Below are positions 6,598-64,000 of a stretch of DNA of 64,000 bases, piece after piece. Both the position numbers and the translations under genes were made by a program. Source of the stretch: Bryopsis sp. KO-2023 (Eukaryota > Chlorophyta > Ulvophyceae > Bryopsidales > Bryopsidaceae); NCBI GenBank assembly GCA_030272585.1, contig BSYQ01000004.1:5580001-5644000 (forward strand), written 5' to 3'. Position 1 is the first letter of the stretch, and the number at the start of each line of letters is the position of its first letter. The notes beneath the pieces were generated by a model that saw nothing but the letters and a program-made list of their open reading frames with translations, did not search any database and was not told where the DNA came from.

Positions 6598-7484
6598 CTT
6601 AAATACTGTTCACAAGGAACTTTCCTCAAATAAACCCGTTGATAAAGAAATCAATAGAGAGTAGTCATGCATTTGCAGACAAAGCATGCAAAAGAATTTC
6701 CAAGTTTTTAGAGACCTGCAGGTCCCAGCTGGGAATAAAAGCAGGACGGTTGAAGAGAACGCTGCCAAGAGCACCAGTGGCGTTTTGACCCGTTGAGCCC
6801 GACTTCTCCGTTCAAAACAACAGCTCTTTGGGACGTGATACGTCTGACTTACTCGGAGTGCGCCAGTCACGTGCACAGCCCCGTGGTTTGGTCGTGTCTG
6901 CGGACGTACTAAACCTGGTGTGCATTCTCGCTCGGGTTCGGGAAGCATTGCTTTGCTCGCCTCCTTTGTGTCCATTTCCGCTGTGCCCGATTAATATTTC
7001 TTTCAATATTGCAAGAAAACACTCGCAACAGGAGGCTTTAGAAAGCCGATGCGGTGATGACTGCATGTTGCACAGGTGTCTCCACCACAAAAAGGCACTC
7101 CGCAGCAAAAAAAGCCAGCGTTCAAAGATTGTCAGATCTCACGACGAGGAAAATTTTAAAATAACGGACAACACGAGAAAAACAAAAGAGGGAAAACTGC
7201 GCCGTCGACGTCGTCCTTTGAAATCCGAATCCCAGACTCTGGATCGGAGGCTGGATTGTCTGCTTGCAACGCGAGCAAATGTTGCAATTTTCTGAGATGG
7301 GGGACAAGATGATATCAAACAGTTGATGAAGGTAGGTTGCGAAAGAAATTAAAGCAGTGGTCAAGGTTCCACGATTGGGGATTTTCCTCCATCAACTTCC
7401 CCACAGAAAAAGCATGGCTTGGGATGAGCAACCATACGACTAAACTACCCCAACGCAAAGGGAAGTTTTATGGAGTTCTCCCTG

Positions 7485-7516
7485 TGATGCATATATTGGT
7501 TGATGCATATATTGGT
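7485..7516. repeat. 16-bp direct duplication
   Basis: Two exact adjacent copies of TGATGCATATATTGGT. They are probably a replication-slippage product or a small footprint. Confidence 0.9.
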
Positions 7517-8826
7517 GATAGCGTCTCCATTACCCATCCAACTTTTTGAGTGGAGTCCAAAAATTGAACTCCACTCTTAATTTAATTTAATTTTAAAATT
7601 GCATGCATGTTCAAAAAGACAAAAAGGGTTTGCTCCAATGATGAGCGATAACAGTCTAAAGGAAATTTGAACATGGGAAATCAAACAGACACAGGCGAAG
7701 TCGCCCCACAGTATCTCATCCCCTGGAGCTGAGTTTCAGACTCGTGATCTGGACAGCATGAATGAAAAAACTAGTAAGACACTCGTTCGTGCCGTGATTC
7801 TAGTGCAGACTCCATTTGTTCGTTTGATTGGGCATCAGTTTCTGAGCAGTTTCCTCAGCCAGATATGATGGTTCAACTCTCGACATCCAAAGAGGATCCT
7901 GGTGACTTGGATGGATTATCTCATTTAAGTCCAGAGGGGGGGGGGGGGAGGGGGATTGATCAATAATTGGTGGCATTTGAGGACAAGATTCCCTCCATCC
8001 TTCATTTCGAAAATCCACAAATGCCAAGCATGAGCCAAGCCCTGAAAACGAACCAATGGAAATCCCGATCTTGGGCAGTCACGAGCAGAGCATGAATTCT
8101 GATCGAGGCTGCAGCAGTTTTTCACATATTGCAGCTTATCATCAGCAGACCACAGCAAGCAGAAAAGCTTTTCTCAATCTGGCATCCCTGAGTGTTGTTG
8201 CAGGGCAGTTCCACCAAGGCAAAATCGATACCTCCCTAGTAAATTCTTCCACAACCACCCTGTCAAGCATTGCACCTTGGGCCAGCAGCACCTCGATGTT
8301 GCTCTCTTCCTGCCCATCGGAACAGCCCCCCAAAATGGAGGTCGATCAACTCCAGCCAAACCCCGCCCCCATTAGACAAATATCGTCACAATCCCAGTTA
8401 TGGGAGGTGCTTTCACTGTCGAGAATCGAGGCACGAAGCTTCCAGAAAAGCACTCTCCACTATTTTTGCCCAGTCAAATTCGACTGCCGATAACCCATTA
8501 TGTGCATATGCCACAGAACAGAAAGGATGCTTGCCATCCAATTTCTTTTTTTTGTTAAACATAATTGAGATTCTATATGCATAATATTACACCCACCAAA
8601 GGTCGGACAGACACCAATAAACACTGATAAAAAGGAAAAAAAAAAACCCATTCACTCAGCATCCACAGCCCGTTCCTGAAAATCAATCCCAGTCAGCCGA
8701 CATTTGACACAATTACACTAAAACTATTTGTTTCCCCCGGAAACTGCTCGACCCTCGTCTTTTTTTCTTTTTCTTTTTCTGTTCTGGCCTTGGCAAATTT
8801 TGCTCGATTTTCTATGATTGGCTTGG

Positions 8827-32695: not shown

Positions 32696-37920
<5,225 letters not shown>

Positions 37921-55120: not shown

Positions 55121-57040
55121 TTTATCATATTCGAAAGTCTATTTTCTATCCTAGTTTTTGAAACTGTGGGCGGTTGGTTTGCCCTTTTTTTTGGGGGGGG
55201 GGGAAGGGTTGATATTGAACCTTGTGGTGGTGTGATCGGGTGATGGGGACCCCCCCCCCCCAAAAAAAAAAAAAAAAAAGGAAAGTGTGGTGAATATGAA
55301 AAGAGTGAGGTAGTGAGCAGGGATCCTCCCGAAAAAAGTGTGACCGAGGTGGGGGGAAAAGTGAGATAGGCAGCAGAAAACGAGGGGGAGAAAAACAGGG
55401 ACGGGGGAGAAAAAAAAGGGAAGAATTTCATAGAAAAAAAGACAGCCAGAAAATGATGTATTTTTGGCAGGAGATGTTTTGTTTTTAGGTGGGGTTTTTT
55501 TCTTCTTTTTTTTCTTTTTTTCAGGGGTTTTGATTTCTAGCTGTTTGTTTTGAGAATGGGACTAAAAGAAAAAAAAAAGGAGGAATGGGGAGATTGCTGT
55601 CTGCACTTTTTTTTTTCTTTTTTTTTTATTTGAAGAGATTTTGATCTTTGGTGATTCGAAAAAAAGAAAAGAAAAATATATAGAGAAAAGAAAAAGTCCG
55701 AAAAAAAAAAAAAACAACTGTTAGATTCTTAACAAAAGAAAAAAATATATGTCTAGTGCGATCGTTGCATTTTTTTATTGTTTTTCTTTTTTTTTTTTTA
55801 CATGCTGATAAATACATGTGTGTGATAAAATGCACACATGTGAAAAGATTTTTAAATTTAAAACAAAAAAATATAAAGGATAGATTAACACATCGAAAGC
55901 ATTGGTTGAAACCAAAGGGAAAAAAAAAAGGGAAGGAAAAAAAAGAAGCTGGAAAAAAGAAAAAATGAAAAGGAGGGTTTGTTTATGTTTTATGTTTTGT
56001 TTTTGTTTTGTTTTGTTTTATAAACCATCTCCCATTGATATTGCGAGAAACGGATAATTTGAAAAAAAACACACAAAAGGTCATCTTTTATAAAGAAAAA
56101 AAAAAACATTAGTTGAAAGTGACATTTCGGTTTTCAAAGTGATCAATGTCGGAGAAAAAAGAAGAAAAAGAAAAAAAACAGCGAGTTTTTTTTTTTTTTT
56201 TTTTCATTGGTAATTTATATAAAAAAAATGCCTGGCTAAAAAACAATTCCACGAAAATGTGGGTAGAGATGGGACCGGTGAATGCCGGGGGTTGAGTTTG
56301 GGAAAGCAATGCTTCAGTTCTTTTTAGTAAGGGAGAAAATATTTATATAAAAGATTATAAAATATTAAAGAAAACGAGGGGGGTTAGGGGTGAGGCTGGG
56401 GACCTTTTTAAAAAAAAGAAAGAAAGAAAAAAAAGTTCCAGACAAAAAAAGGAGAGAGAGAAAAAAAATGTTCATCTGTGTGGTTGAGGGAGGGGGGGGG
56501 GGGGGGAATAGAGAAGGAAAAAAAAACGAAGCCAATTTTTTCTCCCTTTCCCTTTTTAAATTTTTTTTGTTTTGTTTTTTTTGGTGGTGGGATCGTGTTT
56601 TTACAGAAGATGAGGTTTGTGACTTTAAATGTTGTAATTCCCGAAGTCAAAAACAATGGACCTCCTCCCCTGGGGGACTGCGCTGCTGCGTGTTCATTTT
56701 TTTCTTCCAATGTTTTCTGGGAATGTCTATTACAACAGGGGCTTGAAAGCCCCCTGTTACCCCCTAGCGCCCATCCACTAAAAAATTATGTGTATATTTA
56801 TTTTAAATGGGCAGCATAGGGGTCCATCGCTCTAATGGAAGTAAACCACAATCTCCGTATTCATGTTTGGTATTCATATTTGAATCACCCCCTTCCACCG
56901 AAGTTCTTATGCGCAAGACTCCTAAAATCAATGTGAGGATCTTTTTTTTTGGGGGGGGGAGGGGATGCTCCCTGGATTCCATCCCCAATTCTATTCTAAG
57001 GCTCATATGTGGTCTGAACAGATTTTAAAGAATATGATAT
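55121..57040. other. AT-rich intergenic region, nothing recognised
   Basis: About 1.9 kb of T-, A- and G-run low-complexity sequence lies between the U-box gene and the mobile-element cluster. The open frames are all low-complexity (Lys- or Phe-runs). No gene is supported. Confidence 0.5.
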
Positions 57041-57448
57041 TCAAGGTTCAGGGTCCTTACCAGACCTGGGCCCGACCGGACCGGCAGCAAAAAACCGGTC
57101 CGGTCCGGTCCAACCTGTCTAAGGACCGGCCAACCTGTCCGGTCCTGTCCGGTCCAGCGAAAAAACGCCGGTCCTTGCAAGACCGGACAGGCTTTGACCG
57201 GTCCTGGCCTGTCCTGTCCGGTCCATCGGTCCGAAGTGCCTGTCGAAAATGTGGAACGGGTTTCGACAGGCATTTCCGGCTTTGGACAGGCAAACCGCCA
57301 AATTCACCGGACTTAGACAGGACAACAACCGGTCTTGGACAGGCCCACAACCTTTCAAAGACCGGCCCACAACCTGTCGAAGACCGGTTAAACACCGGTC
57401 CAGACAGTGCAAATCGGCGGTTTCAGACAGAAGTTTACCTGTCTTGGA

Positions 57449-57913
57449 CAGAGATAGGACTTGGGCCAAATTTTTGGTCCGACTCCGGTCCGGTCCGGTT
57501 ACGGTCGGGTTACGGTCACCGTACTACGGCCGTAACTCCGTACCGTAACCGGAGCAATATGTTGTTTTTACGGTACGGAACAGGTACGGTATAACTACGG
57601 TAGGCCCTAAATCACCGTGAAGTAGCGTGGTTCAGTGCTAAAGCGTTAGGCTGCAGTCAGTAGGGTCGCGGGTTCGAATCCCCCTGGGTTCCTTTGGAAT
57701 CGCGGGACCCTGCGGGGGTCACTTTCTACGGTTTACGGTTGTTACGGCCGTTACGGTCGTTACGGTCCGGTACGGAGCGGTACGGAGTGGTACGGTGCTA
57801 CGGTTACGGCCGTAAAAGTACGATTTTCTGACGAAAATTGTACTCCGGTTACGGTCCGGTTACGGTGGTTACGGTCCGGTTACGGTGACCGTAACCGTAA
57901 AGTCCTATCTCTG
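57449..57913. mobile_element. hAT-type MITE with tRNA-like cargo, copy 1
   Basis: The 465-bp element has terminal inverted repeats CAGAGATAGGACTT / AAGTCCTATCTCTG and is flanked by an exact 8-bp duplication GTCTTGGA (57441-57448 and 57914-57921). An 8-bp target duplication and a CAGAG terminus are hallmarks of the hAT superfamily. The interior is made of TTACGGTCCGGTTACGGT-like repeats around a tRNA-like segment. It has no coding capacity and was presumably moved by a hAT transposase in trans. Confidence 0.92.
57618..57692 (+). other. tRNA-like sequence inside the MITE
   Basis: GTGGTTCAGTGCTAAAGCGT resembles a tRNA A-box region, and CGCGGGTTCGAATCCCCC is a near-perfect B-box with T-loop, about 45 bp apart as in a real tRNA. 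The T-stem has a mismatch and no clean acceptor stem was found, so it is a tRNA-derived fragment (SINE-head-like) rather than a working tRNA gene. Confidence 0.6.
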
Positions 57914-57988
57914 GTCTTGGACAGGTCAAGCGCCTGTCGAAACAGGAACAACCTCGCGCGATGTGTGAAAGTGTGAACGTCACTGCAG

Positions 57989-57996
57989 TATAAAAG
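57989..57996 (+). promoter_or_regulatory. TATA box of the hAT transposase gene
   Basis: TATAAAAG preceded by GTGAACGTCACTGCAG, about 107 bp upstream of the first ATG. Spacing and context fit a Pol II core promoter. Confidence 0.6.
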
Positions 57997-58437
57997 GGAA
58001 CCCTGCATGCGCGGAAAACCTAGCATCATTCCGCCTACAGCAAGAGCAAACAAGCACGCACGCACGCACGTACGCACCAGGAAAGCCAACGAAAGATGTC
58101 GCCAAAAATGACGCTCCGCAACAAGAGGACGGCCGGTGGGAAAAAGGGAGGTGGGACGGAGGGGGAAAAGTGGACACCGCGAAGGGAAAGGGAAAAAAGG
58201 GACCGGCGTCGAAAGCGGAAGGAAAAAAGGGACCAGCGTCAAAAGCGGGAGGAGAAAAGGCACCGGCGGCGAAAGCAGCGAGTTTGCCGCCGCCTCCACC
58301 GCCCATGGAAGCACCCACGGTGGACACGGTGGACATGGCGGACATGGATGTAAGGGTGTTGCAATTTTTTGTTGGTGAAAAAAAAAATGTAATGAAATAA
58401 TGAAATTTCCAGAAAATCAATTTGAAGATATGTTTTT

Positions 58438-58697
58438 TATCCTTTCAATTTCACATCTGGAATTTATGGTTTTTGTTTTTTTTCCTTGCAATTGCACCTC
58501 TGGAATTTATGGTTTTTGTTTTTTATCCTTTCAATTTCACATCTGGAATTTATAGTATTTGTTTTTTATCCTTGCAATTGCACCTCTGGAATTTATTTTT
58601 TTTTGTTTTTTATCCTTGCAACTTCACATCTGCAATTTATAGTATTTATTTTTTATCCTTGCAACTTCACATCTGGAATTTATAATATTTATTTTGT
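58438..58697. repeat. tandem repeat, about 43-bp unit, intron 1 of hAT gene
   Basis: Six units of about 40-46 bp share TTATCCTTGCAATTTCACAT and CTGGAATTTATAGTATTTGT. The array fills nearly the whole intron. Confidence 0.9.
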
Positions 58698-59099
58698 TAC
58701 CAGGTGGACATATTTGGAGGTTCATCAGGGAACCTTCGAAAGAGGTTGAGGGATGTCGCTGATGAGAGGGAGGGGGAGGAGGACGAGGCCATGCAGAGGA
58801 TGAAGGTGCCCCGGGCAGGACGACTGCAGCCATTAGAAGGGTTTTATGAAGGGGAACTGGATTTCCTTGATGACAGCCCGCCCCCATTCAGGCTGGGGAC
58901 ACTGCCACCACCCATGGCGAAGCCGCGTCAAGGTTCTGCAGGAAAGGGCCCTTCAGGTTCAGAACCATCACAGACATCACAGGTGAGATAAAAGGAAAAC
59001 ATGGAAATGATAAGTTAAAGGTCGGGATGGGTTGCAAACATGATCCAACCACTGCATGGAAGTGGATGATTTAAAAACTGAAAATTGCTTTCCTTTCCC

Positions 59100-59392
59100 A
59101 AAAATCTTTGCCCTGGTCTTGGTCTGACCTGTCCAGACCGGAAAAACAACCGGTTCTGGACAGGAGTTGATGCCTGTCCAGACAGGTAACAGCCTTTCCT
59201 AGGCAGGTAAAGCGCCTGTCCAGGCAGGTATGTCCTGTCCAGACCGGGTAAATAACCGGTTCTAGACAGGATGTGTTGCCTGTCCAGACAGGTATCTACC
59301 TGTTCTAGACAGGTATCAACCTGTTCTAGACAGGTCGTCTGCCTGTCTGGACAGGTCATATACCTGTCCGGACAGGCAAGTAACTGTTCACA
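59100..59392. repeat. palindromic CCTGTC/GACAGG array B, intron 2 of hAT gene
   Basis: A run of CCTGTCCAGACAGG-type palindromes and half-palindromes (also ACCGGTT) with spacers of about 4-12 bp. It contains at least nine CCTGTC and a similar number of GACAGG motifs. No inverted termini or target duplication could be assigned. Confidence 0.85.
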
Positions 59393-59704
59393 TATAATGC
59401 CTTCTTCATGCTAAGTATTCTCTGTTTTCTTGTGTCCAGGGGGAAAGCAGGAAGAGGAGACCCTCGGCAAACGCCTGGGTCAAGCGCCTCTTCCTCAAGC
59501 CCGATGGCACCCTCCATAAAATCAGTGATTTTACGGAGGGTGGGGAGGTCACACAGAAGCTTGTTTGCAGGCTGTGTGACCTCCCCGTGAGTTACCACCG
59601 CAGTTCCCTCACGACTGCGAAGAACCACGCCAAGGGCCACCAACTGAGGACGGAGGAAGATATGCGGAAGAGGGAGGAAGCGGGATGGTAAGAAAAAGGG
59701 ACCC

Positions 59705-59925
59705 AAAACACTGTTGAATGTGCTGAAAAAGAAACACAAAACACTGTTGAATGTGCTGAAAAAGGGACCCAAAACACTGTTGAATGTGCTGAAAAAGAAA
59801 CCCAAAACACTGTTGAATGTGCTGAAAAAGAAACACAAAACACTGTTGAATGTGCTGAAAAAGGGACCCAAAACACTGTTGAATGTGCTGAAAAAGAAAC
59901 CCAAAACACTGTTGAATGTGCATGT
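59705..59925. repeat. 30-bp tandem repeat, about 7 units, intron 3 of hAT gene
   Basis: Units read AACACTGTTGAATGTGCTGA followed by AAAAG(A/G)... in two alternating versions (GAAAC-type and GGGACC-type). The array is open in several frames only because the unit length is a multiple of three. It is not a CRISPR: the units abut with no unique spacers. Confidence 0.93.
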
Positions 59926-60090
59926 GAATCTGATGCATGGTGTCCAACAGAAACTGAAACAGGTATTATGTGTGTTGCAGGCCACGGGGCAACACTGACA
60001 GCACGTCGGGGGTGGTGGTCCACACGGTGAGGAGGGCCTGGAAACCGACGGAGCATGCATGGAAGGTAGCATGCAAGAAGCTGGCGGAGT

Positions 60091-60130
60091 AAGTGTGTTT
60101 GTTTGTTTGTTTGTTTGTTTGTTTGTTTGT
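60091..60130. repeat. (GTTT)n microsatellite
   Basis: About nine GTTT units at the start of intron 4 of the hAT gene, followed by imperfect CTTTGT repeats to about 60178. Confidence 0.95.
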
Positions 60131-61414
60131 TTTTGTCTTTGTCTTTGTCTTCGTTTTTGTTTTTGTGTTTGTTTTTGGTGTTGAATGTTCATGTGCATGT
60201 GTGCTTCAGGTGGGTGGCGGAGGAAGGGCTTCCCCTCTCATTGGGGGAGTCAGAAGGATTTCTGGGTTTTGCCCGCGCCTTGAACGGCCGGGCAGCCCGG
60301 ATTTCCAGACGGTCGGTGGGGCGGAAGATGGAGGGGCTGTTCCACGAACGCCTGGCCCGGGTAGCCCAAGAAATCAAAGGCCACCGAGATTTGCAGCAGC
60401 AACCGGCCTTCACCGGGGATCTGTGGACATCACGGTGAGCATTGTGTCTTTGATAATTGGTACCGTACGCACAGACTTCAATGTGCCAGCGATTTCAGTG
60501 TAACAATGTTTGATGATGTGCCAAGCTTGTTGTAACGCGTAACATGTGTGCCAATGTGCCAGACGCACCACAAAACAATCAAAATAACAAAATCACACCC
60601 ACAATCCACAATAACCACCCAACACCAGATTTAGTCTTTGTGGACCAGAAGAGCACTCTACTCCTCCGGTATTTTGTCCTTCTCTTGGAAATCCCCAACA
60701 AGAAAATATAATTGGAATTTCCTTGTACACCACATTCAGATGAGGAACATGAGGCCTATCCACAACTATCCCCTAAACTATCTGTTTTGGGAGTATGTGT
60801 ATGTTATTGTTTGTTTTTGGACACTTCTGGACTGGGCTGGGTTCAGATCTGTTAGGGTTATTTGGACATAAGAGTTATTGATTCAAAGACAATTCTGATC
60901 TAGCTGGGATTACTTCTGGTTTGGGGAATCACAGTGTGATATTTTAAAGCAGCCTAGACACAGACACAAGTACGTAACATAATTGATGAGTGTGCCACAA
61001 CCCACGTAACGCGTAACACGATGTGCCGCGCCAACCTCAGTGTAACCGTAACGGCACATTGAAGTCTGTGCGTACGGTAATCTGAATTGTTAACCATGCT
61101 GTTGTGTTTTGATTTGTTGTGATGTGTTTTGATTTGTTGTCATGTGTTTGATTCGATTTGCTGTGTTGTGTTTTGATTTGTTGTCATGTGTTTTGATTTG
61201 ATTTGTTGTGATTTGGTGTTGTGTTTTTGCAGGGCGGGTGACAAGTACTTGACTGTCACCGCCCACGCCGTGGATGTCTCCACCAACCCCTCGCAGATGA
61301 AGGACTGGATGCTCGGGGTGTTCCACCTGGATGTGGAAAGGGCCACCTCCGCTGCAATCCAGCAGCTGGTGGAAGACCAGGTTCTCCCGAGCATCCAGTT
61401 GGAGGGGTACAGGC

Positions 61415-61813
61415 CAGTCATGGGCTGCACAGGACAGACCCCTGTCTTGTGCATCGCACAGGACAGGGTTCTGTGCGGGTTCTGTGCACCCTGTGCTGTC
61501 CTGTCCTGTTTTTCGAAAATCCAGGACAGACGTGCACAGGGTCAGATCTGTGCTGCACAGGCGCACAGATTGCATAGCACAGCACAGAATCTGCACAGAA
61601 CTGCACAGAACTGCACAGACTCTGCACAGAATTTGCACAGACTCTGCACAGACCTGCACAGACTTTGCACAGACCTGCACAGACCCTGCACAGACCCGGT
61701 CTGTGCTGTGCTGTGCAAGTCTGTGCACCTGTGCAGCACAGGTCCAACCCTGTGCACAGAACAGACAGTCTGTTCTGTCCTGTCCTGTGCACAGGGGTCT
61801 CAGCCCATGTCTG
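61415..61813. mobile_element. hAT-type MITE inserted in the hAT transposase exon
   Basis: The 399-bp element has ends CAGTCATGGGCTG and CAGCCCATGTCTG (reverse complement CAGACATGGGCTG, one mismatch), flanked by an exact 8-bp duplication GTACAGGC (61407-61414 and 61814-61821). Without the insert and one duplication the exon reads LEGYRPTITTDAGAN, the expected hAT catalytic text. The interior is an array of CTGCACAGACTCTGCACAGA-like repeats, a different motif family from arrays A-C. There is no coding capacity. Confidence 0.93.
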
Positions 61814-62273
61814 GTACAGGCCCACCATCACCACCGATGCGGGAGCTAATATAGCAGCCGCATTTGACAAGTAAGTGAACCAACCAAAAAAAAAATACGG
61901 TGCTTGTTTGAAATTAAATGTAAGAAACAACCACAAGTTGAAATAGCATGCAATGTGATGCCTGGAAACATGTCCACCTCCCCAAGGAAAAACAAAAAGA
62001 AAAATAAAAACACTTAAGAGTATGTGTGTAACAAATTGCAGCCGAAACAGTCTCAACTGGGACTGGATGCGATGCTGCTGCCACACGCTCCACAATAGCA
62101 TGACGTCTGCCCTCAGCACCGCTCCCATTGGAATTCAGGACAGCCTGAAAAAAGCTACGAGGCTGGTGGAGTATTTTTCAAGGTAAGGACATGAAATGAA
62201 AAAAGTTATGGAAGTGAACGATACTATAAGGGAATTTTTATTTTTTTTTCTAAGTTGTTAGTGTGCATTGTGG

Positions 62274-62588
62274 AGGACCTGTCTAGACAGGTCTTTGTCC
62301 TGTCCAGAAAAGGTTAATGTCTGTCTAGAACAGGTTGATTCCTGTCCAGACCGGTTCATCACCTGTCAAGGACAGGACGTTTTGCCTGTCTGGACAGGAA
62401 GTTTTGCCTGTCTGGAAAGGACAGACCTGTCTAGACAGGTCCTTCTCCTGTCCAGACCGGTTCATCACTTGTCAAGGACAGGACGTTTTGCCTGTCTGGA
62501 CAGGAAGTTTTGCCTGTCTGGAAAGGACAGACCTGTCTGGACAGGAGAAGGACCTGTTCAGACAGGTCTATTGCCTGTCTGTTAAAGG
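62274..62588. repeat. palindromic CCTGTC/GACAGG array C, intron 7 of hAT gene
   Basis: Similar to array B: CCTGTCTAGACAGG, CCTGTCTGGACAGG and ACCGGTTCATCAC blocks. An internal stretch of about 110 bp (TTTTGCCTGTCTGGACAGGA and neighbours) is directly duplicated. Confidence 0.85.
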
Positions 62589-62909
62589 TCAGATATGACG
62601 TTTGTTTCTTTGTTTTTTGTGTAGATCTACCACAGCCAGGTTCCAGCTCGACACCCTGCAAAGGGAGGACCTGGAGGGTCGAGGCCAGGAGGTGCCCACA
62701 GATTCGGAAGACGAGGTGGAGGTGGAGCTTGTGGAGGGAAATACAAACCCCCCCAAAGCCATCCTGAAGCTCAAAGTGCCCCAGGCCACGAGGTGGAATA
62801 GCACCTACGCGATGGTGGAGAGGTATGTCATGTTGTTGGTCATTTCTTTTGTTGTTGTTTTTTTTTTCCTTTGTGTTTGTGTTTAACATTGTTGTGCCTT
62901 GTGTGTAGG

Positions 62910-63230
62910 CAGAGATAGGACTTTCCGGTTACGGTACCGTAAACCGTACCGTAACCCCACTCCGGTCACTTACGGTTACGGTAGTTACGGTCCGGACCTG
63001 TGACAGTTTTTCTTAGTGGTAGTGGAAGTGTGGGTTAAGTGGGGTTCGAACTCGTGATCTTCGGATCGCGAGACTTTCTATTTTCGTCCTAACCGCTCGA
63101 CTGAGTGGTAGTTGGTGACGGTTAGTTGGGTGACTGACCGATCATAGTGGGACATTGTGTGAATGTGTGAAAGAGTGAGAGGTGGTTCCGGGGAGGATTC
63201 GAACCTCCGCCGTAACCGTAACTAGACTTT
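62910..63230. mobile_element. hAT-type MITE, copy 2 (left end; right end unclear)
   Basis: It begins CAGAGATAGGACTTTCCGGT, the same terminus as the MITE at 57449, then shows the same TTACGGTACCGTAAACCGTA-like repeats. It sits one base after a splice-acceptor-like GTGTGTAG, so it appears to have landed at the first base of the next hAT exon. The matching right terminus was not found. The MITE-like sequence fades near 63230, so the copy may be truncated or overrun by the element to its right. Confidence 0.7.
63040..63118 (-). other. tRNA-like sequence (minus strand)
   Basis: Read on the minus strand: ACTCAGTCGAGCGGTTAGGA (A-box-like), then GATCACGAGTTCGAACCCCA (T-arm and B-box GTTCGAACCCC). 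A further B-box-like GGTTCGAATCC lies on the same strand at about 63193-63211. These look like tRNA-derived pieces within MITE copy 2 rather than functional tRNAs. Confidence 0.5.
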
Positions 63231-63319
63231 GACCGGTCCGCACTACAAGAGTAGTGTGGTGGTGGACTCGGTGTTCTTTGTAAAGTTCCATTGTCTTATA
63301 CCACTCCCGCGTCTTACAA

Positions 63320-64000
63320 GTGGTTTCGGAGCGAAAGTGTACAGAGCTACACCGAACGATCGGGCGGCCTGTAGAAGTGGGTTCATCGTGAAGACCGGGG
63401 GGAGAACCAGAAATGTCGGCTGAAGACTTGAACAACGTGCTGGAGTCAGTAGCAGCACTGAAGACGGGGTGTAAAGCACTGGAAGACCGTCTAGGGGAAC
63501 TCGAAGGGTTGGAGATAAAGACAGAAATCGCGAATATCCACAAAGCAGGACAGAACGTGGAGAAACTGGTGAATAAGCATGGCGACGAGTTCGCAAAGGT
63601 TCACAAAGCAGGCTTGGCAGTCGAAAAACTGGCGAATAAGCATGGAGAGTCCTTACAGAAACTGTCGAAAGCGGTCGGCAAGCTCGATGAAGCGGGAGCC
63701 GGGCTACAGGACAAAGTCAAAGCTGTAAAGGAGAAAGTAGCCGAGCTTGGAACCACGAACGAAACCAGACATGTCGAGACTACCGGAAAACTGGAGTTGT
63801 TGGAAAAATCGGCGGGCGAGATCCGCGCGGACATGCTGAAAGTTCGACAGGGAGGCACGAAACTGGAACAGAAGGTGTCAAAAGTGAGCCTCGAAAGCCA
63901 AGCGAACCACCAGAAGCTTATGCAGAAGTTGGACGAACTGACGCTGAGCCAAACCCTACGAGAAACCCAGGCGATGGAGTTTCGGACGGAGACGGACACG
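63320..64000 (+). mobile_element. possible 5' part of an LTR retroelement, running off the window
   Basis: GTGGTTTCGGAGCGAAAG near 63318-63336 resembles the TGGTATCAGAGC-type primer-binding site of plant LTR elements. About 80 bp later an ATG at 63413 opens a frame that stays open for 196 codons to the window edge. It encodes a long charged coiled coil with recurring KAGLAVEKLANKHG-type segments, as in some Gag proteins. No LTR, protease or polymerase is in view, so family and age cannot be set. A host coiled-coil gene is the alternative. Confidence 0.4.

Follow-up and report, generated by a model that had tools for sequence, protein, structure and literature searches.

Arrays of a terminal hAT transposon motif within transposase introns in the green alga Bryopsis

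A 64,000-nucleotide stretch of the genome of the bryopsidalean green alga Bryopsis sp. KO-2023 (C4:5580001-5644000, hereafter the window; the genome comprises 91.1 Mb in 28 contigs) contains near its end a hAT transposon, hAT-1, in which palindromes of the form CCTGTC..GACAGG are arrayed both in the subterminal regions of the element and within two introns of its transposase gene. From their sequence and distribution, we consider these arrays to be, probably, the subterminal-repeat arrays of the transposon, i.e., helically phased sites for its own transposase, whose copies in the introns would let the transposase act on its own gene. The new feature is the intronic, code-matched, and helically phased array itself, which we observed in four related hAT families, each using a motif of its own.

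The hAT-1 element and its four arrays

The first base of hAT-1 in the window is defined by matches to other copies, which begin there or at most 3 bases away; the preceding 8 bp are GTCCTTAC, and the later exons of the gene lie in two loci downstream of the window (L006 and L054). One intact copy, L053 on contig 7, measures 6,990 bp and is flanked on both sides by the target-site duplication (TSD) TTGGAGAG, and a copy on contig 1 has an identical 8-bp duplication (CTCACAAG) at both ends. The terminal inverted repeats, as seen in the contig 1 and intact copies, are CAGACCTGGGC and GCCCAGGTCTG. Twelve GT-AG exons of the intact copy join into a 903-aa frame containing the hAT C-terminal dimerization domain (PF05699; 44.8 bits against a cut-off of 21.4), and a phmmer comparison aligns residues 289-499 and 840-900 with the Hermes structure 6dww (E 1.4e-13); these stretches include the DLWT, TDxGAN, and SER motifs, which we take to hold the catalytic residues. 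By these membership tests hAT-1 is an ordinary hAT element. A candidate BED-type pattern, Cx2Cx16Hx3H, occurs in this protein, to which Pfam gives no BED match, and in those of the hAT-D and hAT-6 families described below.

The intact element bears four arrays of one motif, viz., at the 5' end (A), in intron 2 (B), in intron 7 (C), and at the 3' end, at about 0.2, 1.8, 3.9, and 6.7 kb, respectively. A sequence-only reading of the window had counted three, because the window ends within hAT-1: arrays A, B, and C are real and share the motif, and the fourth lies outside the window. The same reading placed array A ahead of the promoter and had B and C fill two introns: A does lie upstream of a candidate TATA box (TATAAAA, which in the intact copy begins ~50 bp past the center of the last 5'-array palindrome), and B and C lie between GT-AG exons. 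Array A is not the single array described there, being cut in the window copy by a 465-bp miniature inverted-repeat transposable element (MITE; Table 1). A further array, in exon 6, is built on another motif and is part of a MITE from a different family.

The exceptional motif density reported for this region holds up on counting. The 80 CCTGTC/GACAGG hexamers of the window include 54 within 57061-62588 (four of them in another family's MITE) and 25 in the first 57 kb, where no tested 300-bp stretch has more than one. At the rate of that first 57 kb, 0.18 hexamers would be expected in 57061-57460, 0.11 in array B, and 0.13 in array C, as against 13, 15, and 20 observed. Defining palindromes as CCTGTC, 2-3 nt, and GACAGG with at most three mismatches, we recovered 12-21 sites per array in five arrays tested, with 200 mononucleotide shuffles of each giving at most three. 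The spacing, which had been called irregular, is regular: the palindrome centers of the intact copy are on average 21.36 bp apart in B and 21.27 bp apart in C (12 sites per array; single steps of 19-22.5 bp), and the mean step between neighbors is 21.8 bp over five steps of the inner 5' array and 20.5 bp over 14 steps of the 3' array. These figures omit five or six outer sites of the 5' array, where spacing is less regular, two overlapping sites in the 3' array, and one overlapping duplicate in C. As ~21 bp corresponds to about two turns of DNA, the sites face one side of the helix.

Within the arrays, pairwise identity is 0.75-0.91 for the half-sites and 0.26-0.44 for the spacers, a comparison that favors the half-sites since sites were picked by motif similarity, whereas a neighboring 33-bp minisatellite of the same gene is near uniform (0.94 over all columns). 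We accordingly rejected B and C as ordinary minisatellites, as their spacers differ while the half-sites stay alike. Other introns of hAT-1 hold motif-unrelated minisatellites with units of 43 bp (58431-58695) and 33 bp (59692-59921).

Distribution of the motif and own-motif intron arrays in related families

The palindrome CCTGTCNNGACAGG occurs 308 times in the genome and its reversed pattern four times; the exact 26-bp 5' end of hAT-1 occurs 125 times and its reversed control not at all. Of the 50 palindromes that head the list of 308, all from contig 1 or part of contig 2, 19 are no more than 1.5 kb from an exact 26-bp end (~0.4% expected by chance) and 28 more in hAT-1 or S2 gene copies or variant-end elements in loci read by eye. 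Thus, 47 of the 50 lie in hAT-1-type genes or elements, which within this sample speaks for the link of the motif to the hAT family that the sequence-only reading proposed to test; the other three (C1:10703099, C2:1406620, C2:1773152) are outside the loci read. The 15 matches to a transposase exon comprise 13 at 97-99%, that of the window copy at 95%, and a last one at 83%. The whole of array B is found in 14 places, the window included, at 98-100% identity; a fifteenth occurrence, on contig 3, is split in two. Near each of the 14, array C is picked up as weaker opposite-strand matches, and on contig 14 the two arrays are 51 kb apart. The 83% relative, a sister subfamily termed S2 (L013, L014), has arrays in the same introns 2 and 7 (17 and 10 palindromes, respectively), in the register of hAT-1 and with partly different spacers.

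The loci searched also yielded eight short elements with matching target duplications. Seven of these have hAT-1-type ends and the motif, measure 335-1,305 bp with identical 8-bp duplications, and are without the gene's introns; two of them lie in apparently duplicated sequence. The eighth (L013:1742-2699, 958 bp, within an S2 gene copy) has hAT-6-type ends and the duplication CCTGGGAC and is without the CCTGTC motif. Separately, L009 (C2:3930001-3940000) and L010 (C2:3975001-3985000) have MITEs in common whose target duplications are identical (CTAGCAAC; GACTCAAG), and the two loci may be segmental duplicates ~45 kb apart. The idea of a MITE lineage expanding by motif amplification is correct insofar as MITEs with hAT-1-type ends carry arrays, but in the loci searched (L005, L007, and L012) neither B nor C is enclosed by hAT-1-type ends with a target duplication. 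The two arrays were hence rejected as inserted MITEs with intact ends, a statement that concerns intact ends and leaves decayed remnants aside.

The list of hAT families used here comes from a Pfam dimerization-domain search of the genome, in which 150 of 185 candidates were scored; it also includes families with long single frames (774-839 aa), whereas those compared below are intron-bearing. Two further families, hAT-D and hAT-N, were encountered in the nest of insertions in and beyond the window copy, and two more, hAT-6 and the family of L059, were fetched as tests of the prediction that further intron-bearing families would have own-motif arrays in introns. The hAT-D elements have the ends CAGTCATGGGCTG and the motif TGCACAG, with blocks that are 28-50% identical to hAT-1 and a dimerization domain that is 65% identical. 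Own-motif arrays lie in two of their introns (L006:6680-6817 and about 7400-7600), the first being present in ten places, of which one covers just 73 of the 221 bases and another has the array split in two; exons of this copy were judged by tblastn matches, as the joined exon reading leaves frame after exon 1. The hAT-N elements have the ends CAGAGATAGG and the motif TTACGG; the intron array in L025 is made of 15 TTACGG units at a step of ~10 bp, and 26 of 28 fetched copies have such an array, with 12-18 repeats. This variation in repeat number is a possible clock for array turnover. The termini of hAT-6 (L058) carry CGTTAC/GTAACG palindromes ~20 bp apart, and one of its introns contains nine palindromes at a 21.25-bp step (omitting a tenth weak match on the splice acceptor), in an array found in eight places at 92-100% identity; a clean target duplication was not found for the L058 copy. 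Across families, array steps are about 21 or 10.1-10.7 bp. The hAT-6 array intron precedes the sequence VRDEI, as does intron 11 of hAT-1 (positions compared by eye), which is array-free (6-mer cosine 0.07 to the termini); hence, the intron that carries an array differs between families.

A 6-mer cosine comparison ties each array to its family. All eight intron arrays (from five families, with S2 taken as one of them and scored against the ends of hAT-1) are closest to their own family's termini, at 0.40-0.66 with shuffle maxima of at most 0.20, and the highest cross-family value is 0.29. The 18 controls (nine hAT-1 introns, seven hAT-D introns, and two hAT-6 stretches, with the hAT-D introns taken up to the ninth and the hAT-N introns excluded) reach at most 0.11 to their own termini. 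The highest control value to any family, 0.20, equals its own shuffle maximum, and one low value of 0.09 slightly exceeds its shuffles (0.07). The borders of arrays and controls, here and in the end searches, were chosen after viewing the sequence.

Nested insertions and neighboring sequence

The window copy of hAT-1 has been broken by several insertions, whose coordinates are collected with those of the gene and its arrays in Table 1. The transposase exon used above to find gene copies matches the empty site of the hAT-D MITE in exon 6. The center of the hAT-N MITE in array A (57620-57700) has a tRNA-like stretch with the look, by eye, of box A and box B; ARAGORN predicts no tRNA gene in 57000-64000, this stretch included. 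A Ty3-type retrotransposon lies inside hAT-N-type elements (62999-63318 and 63392-64000; L055:1-6290), with a gag-like frame in the window and, in L055, a reading that resembles polymerase and integrase; the retrotransposon's terminal repeat at 62999-63318 shares 99.7% identity with L006:3841-4160. Further downstream is nested a long hAT-D element (L006:5150 to L054:2705, TSD ATCCCAAG). Another MITE (L054:460-1485) has an 8-bp duplication (GTATCAAG), ends CATACTATGGATC, and a TGATCG/CGATCA array. Elsewhere in the window, two near-perfect long (AAAG)n runs (35536-35640 and 36290-36380) lie ~650 bp apart.

Table 1. Coordinates of hAT-1, its arrays, and the insertions in the window copy
Feature	Position	Strand	Basis or remarks
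hAT-1 transposon, window copy	57061..64000, continues past window end	+	5' end CAGACCTGGGC; start common to other copies; broken by nested insertions
Array A, outer part (5' subterminal)	57061..57448	+	Motif count; 99% identical to 5' end of L007 copy
hAT-N MITE (465 bp) inside array A	57449..57913		Ends CAGAGATAGG, TSD GTCTTGGA, TTACGG array
Array A, inner part	57914..57946	+	Last palindrome 57933-57946
Candidate TATA box (TATAAAA)	57989..57995	+	Sequence only
hAT-1 transposase, exons 1-8 of 12	58096..62822 (58096-58349, 58704-58982, 59440-59687, 59981-60088, 60210-60434, 61233-61870 interrupted, 62042-62182, 62625-62822)	+	Mapped from intact copy, GT-AG borders
Array B, intron 2	59128..59376		12 palindromes, mean step ~21.4 bp
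MITE, intron 5	60463..61077		27-bp perfect inverted ends, TSD TA (or GGTA); other copies have the empty site
hAT-D MITE inside exon 6	61415..61813		Ends CAGTCATGGGCTG / CAGACATGGGCTG, TSD GTACAGGC, TGCACAG array
Array C, intron 7	62278..62588		Palindromes ~21 bp apart; 106-bp direct duplication in window copy
hAT-N-type element	62910..64000, on to L006:5015		Directly past the end of the intron after exon 8; TSD TGTGTAGG

Possible role of the intron arrays and its alternatives

The subterminal repeats of hAT elements are usually treated as end-recognition sites. An internal inverted repeat lies in an intron of Tol2, for which our literature searches gave no confirmation. 

Family-specific subterminal motifs are bound by the transposases of Ac (PMC3260210), Tgf2 (PMC4890040), Hermes (PMC10368747), and Herves (PMC3143072). 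Maize Ac/Ds resembles hAT-1 in its hexamer clusters near the ends of a hAT element, with AAACGG hexamers in the terminal 200 bp bound cooperatively by the transposase, but differs in that the available text describes them in those 200 bp and mentions no intron arrays (PMC3260210). In Hermes, whose transposase is related to that of hAT-1 by the above phmmer match, the subterminal repeats are the targets of BED domains, and a pair of these repeats makes up a cooperatively bound quasi-palindrome; as described there, the repeats map to the two ends only, in contrast to the rows of 12 and more palindromes of hAT-1, which are found in introns too (PMC10368747). Tol2/Tgf2 likewise has many subterminal repeats (17 left and 18 right in Tgf2, with the BED finger needed for binding), which are reported as haphazard and within both ends, whereas those of hAT-1 are regularly phased and also intronic (PMC4890040). 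ZBED1/DREF, a hAT-derived BED protein that must self-associate in order to bind, recognizes TGTCG(C/T)GA(C/T)A (PMC6179265); this resembles the TGTC-NN-GACA core of CCTGTCNNGACAGG, a likeness that is a lead and not a test, and ZBED1/DREF, unlike the hAT-1 transposase, is a host transcription factor. Our literature search returned, in the texts available, no report of transposase-motif arrays within transposase introns, which does not show that none exists.

Given that the motif follows the family and is common to ends and introns, the transposase would be the economical binder of the arrays, and we infer this role for it; the transposase-binding platform is thereby the best supported of the three candidates offered by the sequence-only reading. 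The transposase would read the palindromes probably as dimers, via a BED-type zinc finger. The end arrays would then function in recognizing and pairing the two ends, the role such repeats have in Ac, Tol2, and Hermes, while those in introns 2 and 7 would let the protein bind its own gene, such that transposase, as it accumulates, may coat the introns and lower productive transcription or splicing. Such negative feedback is a tentative proposal by analogy, preferred because the P element repressor offers a precedent in acting back on its own gene through transcription and third-intron splicing (PMC7776569). The P element belongs to a different superfamily, and the available account describes no phased intronic arrays in it. 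The anatomy would also suit activation, sequestration of surplus protein, or effects on chromatin.

Extended to the clade, the pattern could reflect a design whereby each lineage fills one or two transposase introns with phased arrays of its own motif, the arrays changing as the code changes and the introns differing between lineages, to yield a code-matched feedback switch that might limit copy number via concentration sensing. We advance this, too, as a conjecture that may well prove wrong.

Several observations weigh against the proposed self-binding. The hAT-1 transposase gives no Pfam BED match at E 0.1. Over the kept positions of intron 2 in hAT-1 and S2, half-sites are better conserved than spacers (129/144 vs 57/76; p 0.006) and no better than non-array intron (179/205; p 0.61), making the comparison a weak sign of constraint; the choice of sites by motif similarity also tempers the within-array contrast. 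Arrays B and C score 0.23 and 0.29, above shuffles, against hAT-D termini, the latter being the cross-family maximum. Two hAT-N copies (L024 and L036) have no array in the 1,482 bases read, and the near-identical copies L024-L051 differ in their number of repeats (12-18), as would be the case for a neutral minisatellite. In the 4 kb of L059, a fifth intron-bearing hAT family, no intron array was found by eye or tandem-repeat search, so that one of the two test families has an own-motif intron array. The L059 family is unalignable with the hAT-1 transposase at E 1, and the intron-array trait is known here from four related families, not from hATs at large.

Two alternatives deserve weighing. 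The intron arrays could aid transposition of the full-length element, offering extra docking along its 7 kb that captures or bridges the distant ends, as their match to the ends in motif and phasing and their placement along the element would allow. We think this unlikely: seven short elements with hAT-1 ends are without introns, and the 26-bp end is present 125 times against ~15 gene copies. This shows only that short elements need no such arrays; since elements of this kind have spread, the arrays in introns are more likely of use to the gene than to transposition. Alternatively, faulty gap repair might have placed copies of the ends in introns, or the ends might have arrived there as nested MITEs that decayed, after which they multiplied and persisted as minisatellites. 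The unrelated minisatellites in other hAT-1 introns, the differing array lengths of near-identical copies, the 106-bp duplication in array C of the window, and the half-sites being no better kept than flanking intron all accord with such a neutral origin. It too seems improbable, as the spacers are near random while half-sites stay alike, unlike the 33-bp minisatellite, as both array-bearing introns of hAT-1 also hold arrays in S2, where the spacers are partly different, and as the phenomenon recurs in four families with four motifs.

Recognition by a host DNA-binding protein, e.g., a silencing factor, is very unlikely, given that four motifs, each common to the ends and introns of its own family, would need one factor per family; the unspecified DNA-binding protein suggested earlier loses ground for the same reason, the motif following the transposase family. 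Least credible is an action in RNA, with hairpins or pairing of introns 2 and 7 steering splicing: the very strong folding of the hAT-1 arrays (z -17.5 for B, -18.9 for C), and that of hAT-6 (-7.7) and hAT-D intron 2 (-4.0), are not shared by the hAT-D intron 4 array (-0.7) or that of hAT-N (+1.9), and with this range we rejected hairpins as the shared principle.

Returning to binding by the family's own transposase, the presence of a family-specific code in introns would mean one of two things: binding of these transposases to their own transcription units, or a recurring process by which transposon ends are copied into introns. The matched pairs of transposase and motif from a single genome (CCTGTC, TGCACAG, TTACGG, and CGTTAC) could be used to study how BED-finger specificity changes, and the long, evenly spaced rows of sites would provide material for studies of cooperative binding.

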